Source of the DNA: Leptospiraceae bacterium | GTDB taxonomy: Bacteria > Spirochaetota > Leptospiria > Leptospirales > Leptospiraceae | Direction: 5' to 3' | Assembly: GCA_947458405.1 (NCBI GenBank) | Contig: CANGZW010000017.1 | Span: 1-42,514 of the forward strand | DNA length: 42,514 nt | Shown here: one piece after another, positions 16,749-28,567 of the stretch | How the letters are laid out: every line of letters begins with the position of its first letter | How positions within the stretch are numbered: position 1 is the first letter of the stretch | Program-made: the position numbers and the translations under genes | The notes under the pieces: generated by a model | What the model saw: only the letters and a program-made list of their open reading frames with translations | Told to the model about the DNA's origin: nothing | Databases searched by the model: none

Positions 16749-17456
16749 TTAAATCAGCCCATATCTCTTTTTCAAGAGATGTAAATCCCTAATAAACGCC
16801 TCTCTTTTTTTGGGAGGGAGTATGTTTAAATCTACGGATACCTTGGAATCTTTTATCCGTTTGCCCGGGGGTGAAATCACTTCACCCCCCCTACCCTCTT
16901 TGTCTTTTAAGAGATTTTCTAGGTTTTTTATGGAAGCATCTCTGCCTGATTTCATCAGCTCTTCCACTGACTTCTGGTCTAAACGTGCTATCGAACTTAA
17001 TTGTTTTATATAGCGTTCGGAATATCCCAAAATCACAGCGACTTCTTCCGCAGTCTTTTTTTTCTCTTTCCGGAGGTAAACTATAGCCTTACCAACTTCC
17101 CATGGATTGAGACTTTTTCGCTTCTCATTCTCTGCAAGAGCCATTTCATAACAAACATCTAAGGAGTCATTTACTATTCTTGCAGGGATTTCATTCCATC
17201 CCAGTTTTTGGGCAGCTCTGAATCTTCTCTCACCCGCAACTATCTGGTACTTATCCTGATCTCTTCTTACAACGATTGGCTCAATCAAACCCAAACGGGA
17301 CATTGATTCCACCAGATCTTCCACCTTTTCCTTATCTAAAATTCGGGGTTGATGGGGGTTGGGTAAGATTTGGGATAAATTTAATTTTTCCGGATCCGCT
17401 CCTGTCTGATAGGCGGAAAGCAAATCCATAGAAGCAAATTCACTTTTCTTTGTCAT
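16749..17456 (-). CDS. parB: ParB-like centromere-binding protein (system 1)
   Basis: A 235-aa ParB/Spo0J-family protein. Visible are the N-terminal PNPHQPR motif (33-38), the CTP-binding box GERRFRAA (75-82), box II AENEKRKSLNPWEVG (108-122) and a helix-turn-helix at about 135-158 (TAEEVAVILGYSERYIKQLS). The C-terminal region is short compared with chromosomal ParB (about 280 aa) but ends in a plausible dimerisation helix. It overlaps parA by 17 bases. One near-palindromic parS candidate lies inside this gene (16867-16889) and another upstream of parA. The sequence differs markedly from the second ParB at 27016. Confidence 0.9.
   Translation of the reverse strand: MTKKSEFASMDLLSAYQTGADPEKLNLSQILPNPHQPRILDKEKVEDLVESMSRLGLIEPIVVRRDQDKYQIVAGERRFRAAQKLGWNEIPARIVNDSLDVCYEMALAENEKRKSLNPWEVGKAIVYLRKEKKKTAEEVAVILGYSERYIKQLSSIARLDQKSVEELMKSGRDASIKNLENLLKDKEGRGGEVISPPGKRIKDSKVSVDLNILPPKKREAFIRDLHLLKKRYGLI
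16867..16889. promoter_or_regulatory. candidate parS site inside parB (system 1)
   Basis: GGGGGTGAAA (16867-16876) and CTTCACCCCC (16880-16889) form an inverted repeat around TCA, with one mismatch in the arms. The core is nearly identical to the perfect palindrome upstream of parA at 18268. Two copies flanking or within one parAB operon, about 1.4 kb apart, suggest a ParB-binding centromere. It does not match the usual chromosomal parS (TGTTTCACGTGAAACA) but shares the GTGAAA/TTTCAC half-sites. Confidence 0.6.
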
Positions 17457-18234
17457 TTATCTTACTTCTCACCTCCATCGCTAACTCTAAAAAAGGAATT
17501 CTAATTTTATCGTCACAGTCTTTTAGCATTTTACCTTTTACCTGTGCCTGCGGTATTCCTTCCTTACGGGGAATCACAGTTTTAAAAACGGGGAAGTATT
17601 TTTTTACACCTTCCGCCAGACCCGACAATGCTCTCGATTCTTCGTATAAATTGAACACGGCCCCCAATAATTTTAATCCTGGGTTTGCCTTTTTTTTAAT
17701 TTTTTCAATAGTTCCATATAGATCGCTAATCCCCTGAACACTAAAAGCCCTTGTTTGAATGGGAATCAAAACGTAATCCGATGCTATGAGCGCATTTTCC
17801 AAACTCAAGCCCAATGAAGGAGAGCAGTCTATTAAAATATAATCATAATCTTTGCGCACAGTTTCTAGAACATCCCGTAATAAACTAAAATCTTCTACAC
17901 CAAAAGGGGTAGTAAAATTTGCTAATGATATAGAGGAGGGGAGAACATGAAAATTTTTATGAACTTCTCTTATGACTTTATTTGCTGGAATACTTTCTTT
18001 GCCCCTATATCCCAAACAATCAAAGACTGAGGTTGGAGTTTCCTTAAAGAAGAACCGGCTTGCGTTTGCCTGAGCATCCCAATCCACCAAAAGAACTTTC
18101 TCTTTTTCAGCAAGTGCCTCCGAAAGAAAAAGGGAGATAGAAGTTTTTCCTTCTCCACCTTTTTGATTGGATATTGAAATAATTTTACCTAATTTATTAT
18201 TTTTCTTTGTTGTTTTAATATTTTTTGTAGCCAT
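17440..18234 (-). CDS. parA: ParA-like partition ATPase (system 1)
   Basis: A 264-aa Walker-type partition ATPase. The deviant Walker A motif is KGGEGKT (25-31), followed by LLVDWDAQANAS (Walker A' region), DYILIDCSPSLGLSLENAL (Walker B) and YVLIPIQTRAFSVQG. A basic 15-residue N-terminal extension (KTTKKNNK) may bind DNA, but there is no separate helix-turn-helix, so it resembles chromosomal/type Ib ParA. It drives segregation with the downstream ParB. A perfect palindrome 34 bases upstream of the start could be both centromere and operator. Confidence 0.92.
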   Translation of the reverse strand: MATKNIKTTKKNNKLGKIISISNQKGGEGKTSISLFLSEALAEKEKVLLVDWDAQANASRFFFKETPTSVFDCLGYRGKESIPANKVIREVHKNFHVLPSSISLANFTTPFGVEDFSLLRDVLETVRKDYDYILIDCSPSLGLSLENALIASDYVLIPIQTRAFSVQGISDLYGTIEKIKKKANPGLKLLGAVFNLYEESRALSGLAEGVKKYFPVFKTVIPRKEGIPQAQVKGKMLKDCDDKIRIPFLELAMEVRSKINDKEK

Positions 18235-22176: not shown

Positions 22177-22198
22177 GCACTCCTCATTTTTGGAGTGC
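22177..22198. terminator. stem-loop over the metF stop codon
   Basis: GCACTCC (22177-22183) and GGAGTGC (22192-22198) are perfect 7-bp arms around an 8-nt loop that contains the metF stop codon. No U tract follows on the minus strand, so an intrinsic terminator is uncertain; the hairpin could instead protect the 3' end. A 14-bp palindrome TTTTTTCGAAAAAA at 22025-22038 directly follows the stop of the facing gene. Confidence 0.35.
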
Positions 22199-23050
22199 TT
22201 TCATGATCTCCATGGTGGCTGTGGATTGATTCAGTGTGTAAAAATGTATTCCGGGACTCATGCTCAAGAGCTCACGACATTGGGCAATCGTATAGGAAAG
22301 ACTCACCCTCATAAACTCGGATGGATTGTCTTTTACCCTTTCGAGATCATTGATAAAATCGAGAGGAATTTCGCAATCCGCCATTTCCTTGAACCTCTGG
22401 ATCTGAGAATAAGAAGTAATAGGCATAATTCCAGGAAGTATAGGTGACGTAATTCCGGCATTTCGGGCTCTTTCGAGGAAGTTTACAAAGACTTTATTCG
22501 AAAAAAACAACTGCGTAACTAAGATATCCACCCCTGCGGATACCTTTTGTTTTAAGTAATGGGTATCTGATTCGAGAGTAGGGGAATCCGGATGTTTTTC
22601 TGGATAACACCCTGCAGCCACACAAAACGAGAATTTTTCCTGCCTTATAAACTCCACTAATTCTGTGGCATTAGAGAAACCACTGGGTGGGGGAGTAAAT
22701 TTACCTTCACCCTTGGGTGGATCGCCTCTGAGGGCAATTATATTATGAATTCCACGGTTTTCTACGCTTTTTAGGATTGATTTAATCTCCTCTTTAGAGG
22801 CTCCCACACAGGTAAAATGACACATGGAAGGAATAGAATATACTGTTTGAATTTCAGTGCATATCTCTATCGTCTTATCCCTGGTGGATCCCCCCGCACC
22901 GTAGGTAACAGAGACAAATCCCGGATTTAGTTTCTTTAGTTCTCCTATCGTTGCCTTGAGTTTTGTCTCTCCTTCCACTGTTTTCGGGGGAAAAAACTCA
23001 AAAGAAAAAACAGGTGATTTTGCTTCTGAATAAATTTCTATTATTTTCAT
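22184..23050 (-). CDS. metF: 5,10-methylenetetrahydrofolate reductase
   Basis: A 288-aa flavoprotein that makes 5-methyltetrahydrofolate for methionine synthesis. FSFEFFPPKT at the N-terminus carries the catalytic Glu, followed by FVSVTYGAGGSTRDKTIEI, CHFTCVGASKEEI, NIIALRGDPPKGEG (folate-binding Asp) and DILVTQLFFSNKVF. The longer in-frame start at 23119 would overlap the upstream gene and add unrelated residues, so the ATG at 23050 is preferred; it begins 2 bases after the preceding stop. metF has been placed on chromosome CII of Leptospira interrogans. The association with the upstream repeat protein looks like co-transcription rather than shared function. Confidence 0.93.
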   Translation of the reverse strand: MKIIEIYSEAKSPVFSFEFFPPKTVEGETKLKATIGELKKLNPGFVSVTYGAGGSTRDKTIEICTEIQTVYSIPSMCHFTCVGASKEEIKSILKSVENRGIHNIIALRGDPPKGEGKFTPPPSGFSNATELVEFIRQEKFSFCVAAGCYPEKHPDSPTLESDTHYLKQKVSAGVDILVTQLFFSNKVFVNFLERARNAGITSPILPGIMPITSYSQIQRFKEMADCEIPLDFINDLERVKDNPSEFMRVSLSYTIAQCRELLSMSPGIHFYTLNQSTATMEIMKALQK

Positions 23051-23051
23051 A

Positions 23052-25571
23052 TTATCCCAAACACAAGAGCACAGAAATTGTAGCCTTATCTTTTTTGCAT
23101 TCTCCGAGAGCTTTACCAATTAAAGTTCCGGGCTTAATTTTATTGCTATCAGCCTTTGAGGCAAGACCCGTAGTAAGTGCCGAAACCAATAGATCTCCGG
23201 GCTGAATGGGACCGCCCTCACCGGCATCTACATTCACCTTTGCCAGTCCATATAGGGCAACTAAGACATACTCTGTGCCCACTTTTTTATCGCCCAATTC
23301 TAGGCAGGCACTCTCTATACAGATTCCAATTACCTTTGTGGAGTAAGGATTTCTTGATCGTGATACGGACTGATCCTTATCCGCTATAATTAAAACATCT
23401 CCTTTTTGGATAACATCATTTCCTGAGACCTTAAAGTATCTTGCAATACAGTCATTTCCCTTTTCATCTACGAGCCTGACGGGTCCAAAAAAATCTGACT
23501 CTCCCTTGGCTAAAATTGCCTTTCCCGAGCCTGAAACATCTTTTCTGCCAAGACTTCCACCGTTAGCATAAAGTGCGTATTTTCGGGCAGATACAAAAAC
23601 TCCCCCAAAACCTTTTTTGGAGAATCCAGCAACCCCTGCCGATTCTTCGTCAATTCCACTGGATATTCCCATTACTCCGATATCTTCTCCATAACCGGTC
23701 AGGCCTTCATCAATACCGATTCCTGTTATGCCCGAACCTCCTTTTGCTTCATTTTTCCCATAAATTACGGAGTGATTGGGAGTAGGGATGGTAACATTTT
23801 TTACTTCCGAAGAAGTGTTTCCAGATAAGCGAATCATGCCTGAGTGAGAGTCGTAAGAGTGTAATTTTTCGGCATATTCATGGGTATGTGGCTTTGCTTC
23901 CCTGCTATCATAGAGACGGGGATCATCTGCCTGCACTGCCTTTGAGGCGGCACTTACATTGTGTCGGGAAAAGGTAAGAATTCCCGGTTCATCTAGGGTA
24001 GCATATTTTAATCTCTTATCATTTCCCTGAACAACTACGCCTTCCTTCTCTTCTCCCGAATGGGCGAGCTCTACTATTCCGAGGGATTCCGTGGTGGCTT
24101 TTTTTAATCTTTTGTCATTTCCCTGAATAGCCGCAAGTGCCGATTCTTCCCCATTATTAGCAAAACGAAGAATACCCTCTTTTTGTGTAGTGGCGGGTTT
24201 GAATCGCGGATCGTCGGAAGTTACAACCTTACCGGGTTCATCCGTTCCTATTTCACCGAGTATCACTAACCCATATTCATTGGTGGTAGCCTTCTTTAAT
24301 CGACTATCATTCCCTTGAATAACCACTCCAGGGCGGGTCTCTCCATCTTCTGCTAATTCAATAATACCCGGATATTCAGTTGTGGCTGACTTCAAACGCT
24401 CATCATTTCCCTGAACGACCACTCCTGCCCGTGCTTCGGCATTTCTTCCAAGTCGAACCAGGCCATAGGTGACTTCCGTTGCATTCTTTAAACGCTTGTC
24501 ATTTCCCTGAACGACCACTCCTTCCCTTTCTTCTCCATCAGAGGCGAGCTCTACAATTCCCTTAAATTCGGTGGTAGCGTCTTTCAAACGACGATCATTG
24601 CCCTGTACGGCTACTCCTATATTGGTTTCCCCATCTGCCGCTAATCGAACCAAACCTGAGCGCATTATAGAAGAGTAGGGGGGTGTTTCATTGATGATTT
24701 TCTTCTTGGAAATAGCCAGATAATCAGGAGCGGCATAGACCTCTATTTCAACAATTTGAGTTACATATTTCTTTTGAGAGTTGGGTTTATTGTTAATGGC
24801 CACCAGCTTAATAAAACGCATATTTGTAGGAAAAAACTTCCATTTATACCAGGTTCCGGGCTCGGATATAAACTGTGGTTCCTCGTGCAATTGTTGCCAG
24901 ATCAAATCATCTTCACTGTAATGAAAATAAAATAGTTCAGGAAAATTCGTTTCGGCGTTATTTTTAGAAAGTAGTCTGAATTCATCTACCCTATTGACTG
25001 ATCCCAAATCCATGATTATAAATTCTTCTGCAGGAGAGGTTTTTTCTTTGGATGACCAACCGTAGTCAAGTCTTCCGTCAATGATATTTTCTTTCACCCA
25101 AAAACGGTCATTCTCTGAACTGGCAGTTATTTTTTCCAATCCAGATACCATCAGCCTAAAATTCGAAAATGCTGTCTTATAAAGTCCGTTTTTATCTTTC
25201 TTATTCATCTTGATTACCATTTTTAAATAATTGGCAGTAACCATTGAGAATTTCCATTTACAGGACTTTTTGTTAGAACGGGAGAAATCATATTCTTTGA
25301 TAATAGATTCCCAGACCTGCCCGTCCTCAGAAATATCAAATCGAAAAGTATCGGGCAAAAATTCTAATTCCTTTTCAAGAGCATCATAGGATATATTATT
25401 AAAGGAGACAGACTCCTTAAAATTCATGGTTATACTGGCAACTCCCGGAGTAGGAGATTCTTCCAGGTAACTCAGGAAACTCCCTTTTTCTAAATCATAC
25501 TGACCGGTGGAAAATATGCTCTTTATAAGTATTTCAAGGGGATGACTGATTCTAATAGATGCGTCTGACAT
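23052..25571 (-). CDS. 839-aa F5/8C-like and tail-fibre-repeat protein
   Basis: A large modular protein without an evident signal peptide. Residues about 1-145 and 150-290 are two discoidin (F5/8 type C)-like beta-sandwiches: the second has ENIIDGRLDYGWSS, FIIMDLGSVNRVDEFRLL and MRFIKLVAI. Residues 306-561 are eight tandem 32-aa repeats of the type GIVELA-x-x-GE-x-x-x-GVVVQGNDxRLK-x-ATT, as in phage tail-fibre and collar proteins. Then come HTHEY, a glycine-rich part (GITGIGIDEGLTGYGEDIGVMG) and a C-terminal domain with GDLLVSALTTGLASK, typical of fibre or beta-helix trimers. It probably forms a trimeric fibre that binds a glycan. Cell surface, secretion or a phage-tail-like particle cannot be told apart from this sequence. 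Confidence 0.72.
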   Translation of the reverse strand: MSDASIRISHPLEILIKSIFSTGQYDLEKGSFLSYLEESPTPGVASITMNFKESVSFNNISYDALEKELEFLPDTFRFDISEDGQVWESIIKEYDFSRSNKKSCKWKFSMVTANYLKMVIKMNKKDKNGLYKTAFSNFRLMVSGLEKITASSENDRFWVKENIIDGRLDYGWSSKEKTSPAEEFIIMDLGSVNRVDEFRLLSKNNAETNFPELFYFHYSEDDLIWQQLHEEPQFISEPGTWYKWKFFPTNMRFIKLVAINNKPNSQKKYVTQIVEIEVYAAPDYLAISKKKIINETPPYSSIMRSGLVRLAADGETNIGVAVQGNDRRLKDATTEFKGIVELASDGEEREGVVVQGNDKRLKNATEVTYGLVRLGRNAEARAGVVVQGNDERLKSATTEYPGIIELAEDGETRPGVVIQGNDSRLKKATTNEYGLVILGEIGTDEPGKVVTSDDPRFKPATTQKEGILRFANNGEESALAAIQGNDKRLKKATTESLGIVELAHSGEEKEGVVVQGNDKRLKYATLDEPGILTFSRHNVSAASKAVQADDPRLYDSREAKPHTHEYAEKLHSYDSHSGMIRLSGNTSSEVKNVTIPTPNHSVIYGKNEAKGGSGITGIGIDEGLTGYGEDIGVMGISSGIDEESAGVAGFSKKGFGGVFVSARKYALYANGGSLGRKDVSGSGKAILAKGESDFFGPVRLVDEKGNDCIARYFKVSGNDVIQKGDVLIIADKDQSVSRSRNPYSTKVIGICIESACLELGDKKVGTEYVLVALYGLAKVNVDAGEGGPIQPGDLLVSALTTGLASKADSNKIKPGTLIGKALGECKKDKATISVLLCLG
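23889..24656 (-). repeat. eight tandem 96-bp coding repeats
   Basis: This segment encodes eight consecutive 32-residue units (residues 306-561) of the fibre-like protein. The most conserved part is VVQGNDKRLKNATT-like; units 5 and 8 diverge (VVTSDDPRFK, AVQADDPRLY). The DNA copies are diverged at synonymous sites, so this is an old repeat rather than a recent expansion. Confidence 0.8.
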
Positions 25572-25663: not shown

Positions 25664-25703
25664 ATAAGTGACCAATATTAATCGATTTAATTTAATCACT
25701 TAT
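25664..25703. repeat. inverted repeat at the rep stop codon
   Basis: ATAAGTGA (25664-25671) and TCACTTAT (25696-25703) are perfect 8-bp arms around 24 nt of A/T-rich sequence; the right arm touches the rep stop codon. With the inverted repeat at 25622 it forms a structured zone between rep and the next gene. Confidence 0.35.
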
Positions 25704-26587
25704 CAAGAAAAAACTCGATTTTTTTTGGGCATACTTTCAAATTCAACTTCCAAAGGGATGTCCGAATTATCCAAGAAGTAACGCTGAATGACTTGCTCTA
25801 GAAACCCAGAAACTTGACCAAATATAAGCAATTTATTTCCTGTTATTTCGACTTCTAATTCCTTTAATAGATTACTGGAAGAAGCTGTTAGTTTCTTTTC
25901 CGTCCATTCCAAAAAACTACTCCAGGAAACCCGATTGTTAGAAACCTGCTTATTTTTAGTCGATTTTGACAGTTCCTCCGTTTTCTTCTTACATATACCT
26001 CTCATATAAGCTATATTATTGTGTAAATCCTTGCTCTTTGCTATAGCATAGGCATAGGAGTAAATTTCTTCACCGTAGTCATCGATCAGTTTTTCAAAAT
26101 CAGAGGAAGAATCCATTTTCTTCTTTTTCTCCTTTTCGGGGTCTTTTTGGATCTGGGTATTGGTTATGGTTATGTTTATATGGTTTGGGTGTCCCGTTTC
26201 ATCCCCCTGAGGTCTATTCCCGTCCCCTCCAGCGGTATGCGTTTCTGCACCCCGGGGGTGTATAGAATTATCCCACCGGGGTGTAATTTTAGAGCCCGGG
26301 TAGTTAAAGGTAAAATAGTAAATCGAATTCGAATGTCCACTTCCCGATTTCGTTTGTATCAATCCTTTATCTATTAAGTCTTTTTTAGCATCTATTACAG
26401 ATTTCTTTGTTTTAAAGCCTGTTAATTTTAATAAAGTGCTTGTACTTGGCCATACCTGCTTAAAATTTTGATCACTGAACTTTAAAAGCACCGGATAAAG
26501 GGTCTTGGCACCCGAAGAAAGCCCTGCCCAAGTCCCAGAATCGATAATATCGCTCATAAATTTGATGTACTGCTGAGGATCTGCCAT
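25703..26587 (-). CDS. putative replication initiator with winged helix (Rep)
   Basis: A 294-aa soluble protein with an N-terminal winged helix-turn-helix (about 20-95): LSSGAKTLYPVLLKF, VWPSTSTLLKLTGFKTKKSVIDAKKDLIDKGLI, and the wing IYYFTFNY. A disordered Gly/Pro/His/Thr-rich linker (about 100-140) leads to a helical C-terminal domain (DDYGEEIYSYAYAIAKSK, YMRGICKKK). This layout occurs in plasmid and phage replication initiators. The gene lies next to parB and parA, and the cluster sits at the strand-composition switch, so a replication role fits. No catalytic motif proves it; a transcription regulator is the alternative. A GGAG ribosome site precedes the ATG, and a strong promoter at 26914-26941 points at it. 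Confidence 0.6.
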   Translation of the reverse strand: MADPQQYIKFMSDIIDSGTWAGLSSGAKTLYPVLLKFSDQNFKQVWPSTSTLLKLTGFKTKKSVIDAKKDLIDKGLIQTKSGSGHSNSIYYFTFNYPGSKITPRWDNSIHPRGAETHTAGGDGNRPQGDETGHPNHINITITNTQIQKDPEKEKKKKMDSSSDFEKLIDDYGEEIYSYAYAIAKSKDLHNNIAYMRGICKKKTEELSKSTKNKQVSNNRVSWSSFLEWTEKKLTASSSNLLKELEVEITGNKLLIFGQVSGFLEQVIQRYFLDNSDIPLEVEFESMPKKNRVFS

Positions 26588-26646
26588 CTAAATTCTCCTG
26601 TATTCCAAAAAAAATCTTAAAATTAAGCAAAAAATTTAAAAGAGGG

Positions 26647-26676
26647 TTGACTTTTTTGAGAATATAATTTTATTAT
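26647..26676 (+). promoter_or_regulatory. sigma-70-like promoter of candidate antisense RNA
   Basis: TTGACT (26647-26652), an 18-nt spacer and TATTAT (26671-26676): five of six consensus bases in each box. It points right, away from rep and opposite to both flanking genes. The predicted start is near 26683, only about 30 nt before a terminator hairpin, so the product would be a very short RNA. Confidence 0.4.
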
Positions 26677-26682
26677 GTCTCA

Positions 26683-26739
26683 TCCAACAACACTCATTCG
26701 GGTTCTTGCCCATTTCCCCCGGCAACGGGGGAAATTTTT
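26683..26739 (+). ncRNA. candidate short antisense RNA against the rep leader
   Basis: The predicted RNA of about 57 nt begins after the promoter at 26647 and ends in a hairpin with arms ATTTCCCCCG (26712-26721) and CGGGGGAAAT (26726-26735), loop GCAA, followed by T residues. This is a strong intrinsic-terminator shape with a stable GNRA-type tetraloop. The rep transcript predicted from 26907 downward covers the same bases on the other strand, so the RNA would be fully complementary to the rep leader. Countertranscribed RNAs of this kind control many plasmid initiators. Start, size and expression are inferred. Confidence 0.35.
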
Positions 26740-26775
26740 GAGGCTATGCTCAGGTGGTAAGAAAATAGAAATAGC

Positions 26776-26793
26776 TAAACCCAAATGGGTTTA
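26776..26793. repeat. 18-bp palindrome in the rep leader
   Basis: TAAACCCA (26776-26783) and TGGGTTTA (26786-26793) are perfect arms separated by AA. It may be a binding site for Rep or ParB, or a leader hairpin; no protein is assigned. Confidence 0.45.
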
Positions 26794-26833
26794 TTTACAC
26801 TTTTTCTACACCTTATTGACAGTACAAAAAAGG

Positions 26834-26856
26834 CATAGGTTACTCACATACCTATG
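26834..26856. repeat. inverted repeat in the rep leader
   Basis: CATAGGT (26834-26840) and ACCTATG (26850-26856) are perfect 7-bp arms around 9 nt, followed at 26862 by the palindrome GGATATCC. It is an operator- or origin-like element of unknown partner. Confidence 0.35.
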
Positions 26857-26913
26857 GGTAAGGATATCCCACTGATATTCTATTTTCTTTTCACAAAAAC
26901 CTAGTTATGTCAC

Positions 26914-26941
26914 ATTATAATTGCTCTTCAGAATCAGTCAA
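26914..26941 (-). promoter_or_regulatory. strong promoter toward rep
   Basis: On the minus strand, TTGACT (26941-26936), a 16-nt spacer and the perfect -10 box TATAAT (26919-26914). Transcription would begin near 26907 and give rep a leader of about 320 nt containing the palindromes and the region complementary to the candidate antisense RNA. Confidence 0.55.
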
Positions 26942-26950
26942 ACAAGAATT

Positions 26951-26975
26951 ATTGTACTAATGAAAATTGTACTAA
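26951..26975. repeat. two direct repeats ATTGTACTAA
   Basis: ATTGTACTAA occurs at 26951-26960 and 26966-26975, a 15-bp period, immediately upstream of the rep promoter. Two copies are too few to call iterons, but the position fits an operator or initiator-binding site. A reverse copy of nine bases (TAGTACAAT) near 20318 is probably chance. Confidence 0.35.
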
Positions 26976-27015
26976 ATATTTATGGGGTATATTTTTTTGC
27001 TTTCTAGTCCGCTGA

Positions 27016-27831
27016 TTAGGAATGGAAGATAGAAAGCAGTCTTTTATAGGTAATTTCAAGGGTTTCGGGATCCTCAAATTGTAAAACAATGGATTTTTCT
27101 AATTTCTGGATACGGATTCCTGAATTTTGATCTTCTTTGGATTTTGGGGCTTGGGGTGGACTGTCTGGTTTTTCGTTTCTGTTCTTATTAAATGATTTTG
27201 CATCTTTGACCGTACGAACATTTCCTGTTTTTACCTGTTCTAGAAAAGAATGAAAATCTCCGCGTTTGGATGCCTGAACTGCCTGCACCAGTAGATTTTT
27301 ATTGTCTATTCCAGCCTCTCTACAGGCATTGATCTCCCCCGTGGATAAATTACTTACACTCAACATTTCTGTCATATAGCTTCTACTTTTTCCAAAGAGG
27401 GAAGCCAGTTCCTGGTCGGTATAGCTGTACTTTTCTTTGAGAATTGTCATGGCTTCAATTTCTTCATAAGGAGATAGATTTTCTCTTTGTAAGTTTTCGA
27501 TTACAGCGAGTTTATAGGTTTCTTTTTCGTTTTTATTGAGTATTTTACACTCAATTTCCTCCCAACCCAATAACTTCGAAGCATGGTATCTGCGTTCCCC
27601 GGCTATAATTTTATAGGTATCATCTGAATCTTTGGTGACTAGAATCGGTTGCAGGAGACCATCTGTACGAAGACTTTCTGCAAGTTCCTCGACACCTTTT
27701 TGTCTTTCAGATCTTGGTTGGATGCGGGAAGGGGCAATTTTGGAAAGTTTGATTTTTCGAATACTCCCTTCCAGAACTTCTGTTTGGAAGATATCAGCTA
27801 AGGATCCAAGTTTTTTACTTTTTGAGCTCAT
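27016..27831 (-). CDS. parB: ParB-like centromere-binding protein (system 2)
   Basis: A 271-aa ParB/Spo0J-family protein. It has RIQPRSERQ (37-44), the CTP-binding box GERRYHA (78-84; the usual second Arg before Ala is His), the box ENLQRENLSPYEE (112-124) typical of chromosomal-type ParB, a helix-turn-helix (about 136-160, TDQELASLFGKSRSYMTEML), a polar linker and a C-terminal dimerisation helix. It overlaps parA2 by 17 bases and lies next to rep, as in plasmid and secondary-chromosome partition cassettes. It is only distantly similar to the ParB at 16749. Confidence 0.93.
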   Translation of the reverse strand: MSSKSKKLGSLADIFQTEVLEGSIRKIKLSKIAPSRIQPRSERQKGVEELAESLRTDGLLQPILVTKDSDDTYKIIAGERRYHASKLLGWEEIECKILNKNEKETYKLAVIENLQRENLSPYEEIEAMTILKEKYSYTDQELASLFGKSRSYMTEMLSVSNLSTGEINACREAGIDNKNLLVQAVQASKRGDFHSFLEQVKTGNVRTVKDAKSFNKNRNEKPDSPPQAPKSKEDQNSGIRIQKLEKSIVLQFEDPETLEITYKRLLSIFHS

Positions 27832-28567
27832 TTAAAAACTCCTCTATAAAACTTTCATATTCTTTTGCCTGTCTACTTTTGCCATTGTATTCATAGATAG
27901 AGCATTTAGCCAGATGACTTTCTCCAATGGCAACTCCATCCGAAATGGTTGTATCGAATACCTTGAAGTATTTATCTAGAACAGGAATAATCGTTTTGGT
28001 AAGGATCGTATGTTGCTTTAACTGAGTCACCAGGGCTCCAATAATTTCCAAACCGGGATGGATTCTTTTTTTGATTTTGGTGATAGTTTGTTGGAGTCCA
28101 GCGATTCCATCCACAGAAAATTTTTCTGCCTGCAGGGGTATCAAAACATAGTTAGAGGCGGCTAAGGCATTGATCGTAAATACAGAAAGGCTGGGGGGAC
28201 AGTCAATTATACAAAAATCAAAACCTTCTAAATCTTCCATGGAATCTTTCAGAATATAAGGGGTTTCCACATCTCCTGAATTTAAAGATTCCATCTCCGC
28301 CAATTTTATATTAGCGGGGGCAAGAAAGAGGTTTTCTGTTTTTGTGGGTAGGAGTATATCGATAAGTTTTAGTTTTCTTTTGAATATATCCTGCATGGAT
28401 TTTTCAAGGCTTTCTACGTTCACATAGATACCACTGGAATTTCCTTGGGGGTCAATATCCAACAAAATCGTTTTCATTCCCCTTCTGGCGAGTCCTTCGG
28501 AAAGGTTGATAGAGGTAGTTGTTTTCCCTTCGCCACCTTTTTGGTTTGTTACGCATACTGTGATCAT
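27815..28567 (-). CDS. parA: ParA-like partition ATPase (system 2)
   Basis: A 250-aa Walker-type ATPase of the Soj/type Ib kind without an N-terminal DNA-binding domain. Motifs: KGGEGKTT (10-17), LLDIDPQGNSSG (A'), FCIIDCPPSLSVFTINAL (Walker B) and YVLIPLQAEKFSVDGIAGL. The sequence is closer to canonical Soj (DPQGN, DCPPSL) than ParA system 1. It heads the parA-parB pair upstream of rep and diverges from the Fis-type regulator gene, with 133 bp between the starts. It should segregate this replicon together with the ParB at 27016. Confidence 0.94.
   Translation of the reverse strand: MITVCVTNQKGGEGKTTTSINLSEGLARRGMKTILLDIDPQGNSSGIYVNVESLEKSMQDIFKRKLKLIDILLPTKTENLFLAPANIKLAEMESLNSGDVETPYILKDSMEDLEGFDFCIIDCPPSLSVFTINALAASNYVLIPLQAEKFSVDGIAGLQQTITKIKKRIHPGLEIIGALVTQLKQHTILTKTIIPVLDKYFKVFDTTISDGVAIGESHLAKCSIYEYNGKSRQAKEYESFIEEFLNELKK

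Follow-up and report, generated by a model that had tools for sequence, protein, structure and literature searches.

The window, by which we mean the entire contig of 42,514 bases analyzed here, belongs to a Leptospiraceae genome of 3.94 Mb. In the region of interest parA, parB, a gap of 428 bases, rep, a gene for a discoidin-domain protein and metF follow one another on the minus strand (Table 1), and this parA-parB-gap-rep-discoidin-metF order is common to the window and the chromosome II (cII)-type replicons of L. interrogans. On sequence grounds, this contig represents a Leptospiraceae replicon of the chromosome II type. As asd, trpE and pyk domains are also encoded, together with another parA-parB pair, chromosome-like replicon is a fair label. 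This second ParA/ParB-type pair is located on the minus strand at 16749-18234, approximately 9 kb from the main parAB, and homologs of its ParB are present in other genomes of the family. The origins of Leptospira CII and p74 have been described as a partition operon plus rep, with no mention of an antisense RNA (PMC2229662).

The first-pass annotation of the gap between parB and rep had proposed a minus-strand promoter (TTGACT-16-TATAAT) that gives rep a leader of approximately 320 nt and, on the plus strand, a promoter (TTGACT-18-TATTAT) followed about 35 nt later by a perfect 10-bp stem with a GCAA loop and a T run. All of these elements are present at the level of individual bases, with 35 nt between the -10 box of the antisense promoter and the terminator stem. 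The rep promoter is the top-scoring of 15 sigma-70-like sites in the 4 kb that were scanned; with 10.9 such sites expected, lone promoter-like sites are not rare in the window, and the significance of the promoters therefore rests on their conservation. The perfect stem of the terminator is formed by ATTTCCCCCG (26712-26721) and CGGGGGAAAT (26726-26735) around the GCAA loop (26722-26725), and the U-run counts merely 5 residues, because the T run stops at 26739 and is followed by a G at 26740. On the plus strand, there is no upstream gene for which this terminator would be required.

The predicted RNA would begin with an unstructured 5' tail, followed by a small hairpin and the terminator hairpin. 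Its tail, AUCCAACAAC, is predicted to be single-stranded and is conserved, and hairpin 1, located before the terminator, is the weaker of the two hairpins. At the sequence level the RNA has the general attributes of a countertranscribed RNA (ctRNA), as it lies opposite the rep leader, is fully complementary to it, and possesses its own promoter and terminator. A leader peptide in the rep mRNA (MRHN...), assessed by eye, was rejected, as it is variable in both length and sequence and the antisense promoter falls on its conserved start.

Table 1. Position of genes and sequence features in the window, and of the counterpart RNA in L. interrogans.
Feature	Position	Strand	Remarks
metF	22184-23119	-	downstream; common to Leptospira cII
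discoidin-domain protein gene	23052-25571	-	downstream; common to Leptospira cII
rep, replication initiator	25703-26587	-	294 aa, HTH_36 domain; named by position and homology
untranslated rep mRNA leader (target)	26588-26907	-	~320 nt; start at ~26907 predicted from the promoter
antisense RNA promoter	26647-26676	+	TTGACT 26647-26652, TATTAT 26671-26676; 10/12
operator-like motif TTATGTCTCATCC	26673-26685	+	over -10/+1 of the antisense promoter
predicted antisense RNA	26683-26739	+	~57 nt; fully complementary to the rep leader
RNA hairpin 1, GGGU-UCUU-GCCC	26700-26711	+	from folding; equivalent hairpin in relatives
intrinsic terminator	26712-26739	+	10-bp stem, GCAA loop, U-run
operator-like motif TTATGTCACATTA	26905-26917	+	over -10/+1 of the rep promoter
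rep promoter	26914-26941	-	TTGACT 26941-26936, TATAAT 26919-26914; 11/12; counterparts in relatives
parB	27016-27831	-	
parA	27815-28567	-	
L. interrogans RNA counterpart	~295141-295199 of NZ_CP020413.2	complement	

Conservation and structure of the predicted antisense RNA gene

A DNA search recovered the promoter and the RNA start at the rep locus of five further genomes from the family. A search with the Rep protein yielded homologs across the class, and after orientation of the loci 38 rep leaders were compared, including those of L. interrogans cII and of a 25-kb Turneriella parva plasmid. When GC-rich terminators were sought at 60-170 nt from the rep start, with dinucleotide shuffles as the null, an antisense-strand terminator was found in 36 of the 38 rep loci (0.6 expected), whereas the same strict scan found a sense-strand terminator in none of the 38. 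The antisense terminators comprise 26 distinct stem sequences, and 31 of the 36 are preceded by an antisense promoter (4.0 expected; five on the sense strand). The -10 box and the stem are 34 nt apart on average. Poor conservation of promoter boxes and hairpin had been named in the annotation as the result that would count against the RNA, and these counts point the other way. G003 is the sole clear absence, and G043 fell outside the scoring rule. The same RNA gene is plainly visible in L. interrogans cII, and the T. parva plasmid shares the gene order as well as the RNA, so that the module serves plasmid and chromid alike. It is very probable that the antisense RNA gene is real and ancient, and that its product is a short RNA with complementarity to the rep leader.

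The family alignments fold as a small hairpin followed by the terminator hairpin. Covariation of the hairpin, proposed earlier as a check, is borne out by compensatory changes at 2 of 12 pairs in one family alignment and at 5 of 13 in another. Family-wise alignments (A5, A7) were used since MAFFT cannot align stems that differ in length; a first all-family covariance model (A6) yielded no consensus pairs. A further covariance model (R2), built from five relatives with the window excluded, was used to search 48 whole genomes from the class. Its sole match in the genome of the window is at 26677-26740 (E = 3.1e-5), new matches were obtained at the rep leaders of G001 (6.5e-10), G015 (1.4e-5) and G025 (1.1e-4), and one weak match (G027:C100, E = 7.5e-4) is not near rep. 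No Rfam covariance model matched the window at or above its gathering score.

Several individual loci deserve mention. G003 (L105 / G003:C30) has kept parB-rep and two copies of TATGTCTC, and its antisense RNA was either lost or never acquired. In G001, the parAB-rep-metF module with the antisense RNA (L104, G001:C2:1177000-1196000) is found on a 1.41-Mb contig that also bears dnaA (C2:487255) and a second, Spo0J-like parB (C2:479928); either chromosome II has perhaps fused with the main chromosome in this organism, or the contig is misassembled. In leaders of the Turneriellaceae type (L028, L029, L037, antisense strand), the stretch that opens the RNA, TCCAACAAG, recurs near the rep promoter, and a CCAACA/TGTTGG inverted repeat flanks the antisense -10 box. 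The rep leaders of LE1-type phages and of the L. mayottensis plasmid p2 (L106-L108) are without such an RNA and without an antisense terminator, yet they share another long and strikingly conserved leader, TACGGTGC.GGACATA...TTACCCTACTCTA..., with two TATGTC copies, approximately 420 nt upstream of rep, which is possibly a structured regulatory leader. Among viral contigs, an exact pattern scan gave 11 chance matches, none of them with the hairpins, and a search for Rep found nothing.

Predicted effect on the rep leader and alternative explanations

We consider it probable that the parB-rep gap encodes a countertranscribed RNA of approximately 57 nt that, transcribed against the rep leader of this chromosome II-type replicon, binds the nascent leader and lowers the production of Rep. 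Binding at that site would most likely be what reduces Rep, and less Rep would in turn lead to fewer replication starts as the gene dose climbs, providing copy-number control and incompatibility.

The stretch covered by the RNA in the window stops approximately 94 bases upstream of the rep start codon, and the RNA can therefore not simply mask the ribosome-binding site. Refolding of the leader appears the likeliest route, because in many relatives the rep ribosome-binding site would be held shut more firmly once the leader is bound. With the target blocked, the predicted cost of opening the rep start rises by a mean of 2.0 kcal/mol over 37 leaders, compared to -0.7 for a control block, and the rise exceeds 0.5 kcal/mol in 23 of the 37 (paired p = 6.7e-6, with related genomes treated as independent). 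A partial copy of the RNA that could compete for the target lies between the target and the rep start in 19 of the 37 leaders (p = 3.4e-6, kinship ignored). These copies read GAAGCCCC in one family, CTTCGGGA in L. interrogans and TCCAACA in Turneriellaceae, and in several folds the segment that contains them pairs with the ribosome-binding site. For the leader of the window, the effect varies from -1.6 to +3.4 kcal/mol with the 5' end chosen, and no significant competing copy is found (p = 0.41), so that the refolding mechanism rests on the relatives. Collision of the convergent transcripts possibly assists the refolding.

The convergence of the rep and antisense promoters, the motif at both of them, suggesting control at the level of DNA, and the lack of a clear refolding signal in the leader of the window would also fit transcription interference by the antisense promoter and its terminator, with an RNA that is made but whose pairing carries little weight. 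However, interference requires no conserved hairpins, whereas hairpin 1, the 5' tail and the stem pairing are all conserved, and the copies of the RNA sequence further downstream in 19 of the 37 leaders indicate pairing of the RNA; we regard interference as unlikely. Antitermination, in which the target would pair with a U-trailed downstream stretch that ends rep early in some lineages and the RNA would relieve this pairing and activate rep, derives from a looser scan of the sense strand (simple shuffles, loops up to 59 nt). In that scan, 11 of 37 leaders versus 3.4 expected, including those of L. interrogans (TCCCGAAGG/TCTTCGGGA-TTTTT) and G002, show pairing of the target, or of leader sequence near it, with a segment trailed by a U-run. 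If such a pairing were a working terminator the RNA would relieve it, and the sign of regulation is thus not fixed by the sequence. Nevertheless, the loops are mostly 21-59 nt, which is poor for termination, and the pairing is absent from the window. Moreover, the antisense rep controllers in the papers compared are all inhibitors, and an activator driven by gene dose would make copy number unstable rather than stabilize it. Antitermination is quite unlikely as a consequence; for the last two reasons we infer repression rather than activation of rep, and the predicted RNA likely has a role in restraining Rep.

That the plus-strand transcript is a replication primer or origin-opening transcription, and not a regulator, is improbable: it adjoins rep in the presumed origin region, but it stops after approximately 57 nt at a strong conserved terminator, and the target-complementary copies within the leader would be left unexplained. 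We give very little credence to a short peptide encoded on the plus strand from the ATG inside TTATGTCTCATCC (MSHPTT...). Though a frame of 66 aa is open in the window and its first codons are similar within the family, the ATG overlaps the -10 box and lies upstream of the predicted transcript start, the frame reads through a terminator, and relatives show stops and codon-changing substitutions (e.g. ATG TCT CAT TAT CCA ACA AGT TCC TAA in G030). Equally little credence goes to chance elements, or to origin features that act as DNA in the absence of any RNA; isolated consensus matches occur often in AT-rich DNA and the motif may be a protein site, but the terminators in 36 of 38 loci, the promoters in 31 of 36, the compensatory pairs and the matches of the covariance model all argue against this reading.

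Comparison with known antisense controllers

Antisense RNAs control repABC replicons, alphaproteobacterial chromids included, and the RepE/incA/IncAlpha ctRNA has been proposed to refold the mRNA and thereby close the ribosome-binding site of the initiator (PMC6090056). The annotation had put forward a countertranscribed RNA over the rep leader as the first case at a chromosome-like replicon. The predicted RNA itself is strongly supported by the promoter, hairpins and terminator conserved across the class, but the novelty was claimed too broadly and is contradicted by the chromids. Similar to the repABC controllers, the RNA described here is an antisense RNA of approximately 50 nt with its own terminator, between a parB-type and an initiator gene, on replicons able to carry essential genes. 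In contrast to repABC, Rep is an HTH_36 protein that matches no RepC model, rep has its own promoter, the phylum is a different one, refolding is not demonstrable in the window, and both promoters carry the additional -10/+1 motif. A repABC ctRNA lies between repB and repC, with RepC as the initiator; only the parAB-rep order is similar here, and as initiator, phylum and RNA sequence differ, the RNA is not a repABC ctRNA. It may, however, work like one.

RNAII of pMV158 inhibits initiator synthesis, with the repressor protein CopG acting alongside (PMC4485353). Like RNAII, the RNA is a very short antisense RNA with a single-stranded 5' tail, a terminator hairpin and a U-rich end. In contrast, pMV158 is a rolling-circle replicon with an unrelated RepB, its RNAII has one hairpin where most RNAs of the class have two, and no repressor gene such as that for CopG was identified here; with usually two hairpins, and a Rep that has no Pfam match to rolling-circle Rep proteins, the RNA does not belong to the RNAII type. 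The ctRNAs of pT181 and pIP501 act by transcription attenuation. Similar to these, the RNA is antisense to a long rep leader in which alternative folding would be decisive; unlike these, there is no conserved sense-strand terminator past the target (0 of 38 loci in the strict scan, 11 of 37 leaders in the loose scan, none in the window).

In the literature searched, there was no report of this RNA in Leptospira-type replicons, and the replication setting of Leptospira-type second chromosomes was not described. The findings of one study do include antisense candidates in L. interrogans (PMC5243855). A ctRNA in this bacterial class, paired with an unrelated initiator and belonging to no Rfam family, appears to be new. 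It would supply a concrete switch, consisting of a defined RNA of 57 nt, its target and two promoters. For vectors and hosts with a common rep, incompatibility has been reported, with antisense control unmentioned (PMC4338851). The RNA may bear on the incompatibility observed with shuttle vectors for Leptospira that derive from related replicons.

The shared -10/+1 motif

Both promoters in the gap carry an operator-like motif, written as TTATGTCNCAT or TATGTCNC, also as TTATGTCTCATTA, and in a longer form as TTATGTCNCATWA. In 29 of 37 leaders, TATGTCNC is located at -10/+1 of the two opposing promoters. Leaders contain a mean of 1.71 copies each, compared to 0.033 in shuffles, and just three copies occur within the 42.5-kb window. 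Genome-wide, TTATGTCNCATWA is enriched over a reversed control in all five genomes analyzed (12/2, 12/0, 13/3, 13/2 and 7/0); the sites are mostly intergenic, and are located upstream of dnaA in the genome of the window and in G030, and upstream of a ribonucleotide reductase gene in G030. At most 300 bases upstream of the gene, the motif is present for dnaA at 15 of 30 loci and for dnaE at 19 of 30, against background densities of 0.023 (dnaA) and 0.036 (dnaE) per 315 bases, and at dnaE it often lies 1-11 bases ahead of the start codon. Motif-bearing loci beyond the window include L070, L139, L130, L077, L084 and L141-L200.

This motif may represent either a promoter element or the operator for a regulator of replication. 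The two promoters of the gap are probably under a common host regulator, because the motif they share also occurs at dnaA and dnaE in numerous members of the class. More tentatively, we can envisage a replication regulon throughout Leptospiria, in which a putative host regulator would recognize TTATGTCNCAT at -10/+1 of dnaA, dnaE, rep and the antisense RNA gene and coordinate both chromosomes; we hold this to be possible, though doubtful. If true, the chromid initiator and its brake would be set jointly with the initiator of the main chromosome by one DNA-binding protein and an antisense RNA. A motif common to dnaA, dnaE, rep and the antisense promoter offers a lead to how two chromosomes may stay in step in this class. 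In several genomes (L072, L081, L083, L128), two copies of TTATGTC, inverted or close to each other, also precede a DegT/DnrJ/EryC1 aminotransferase gene.
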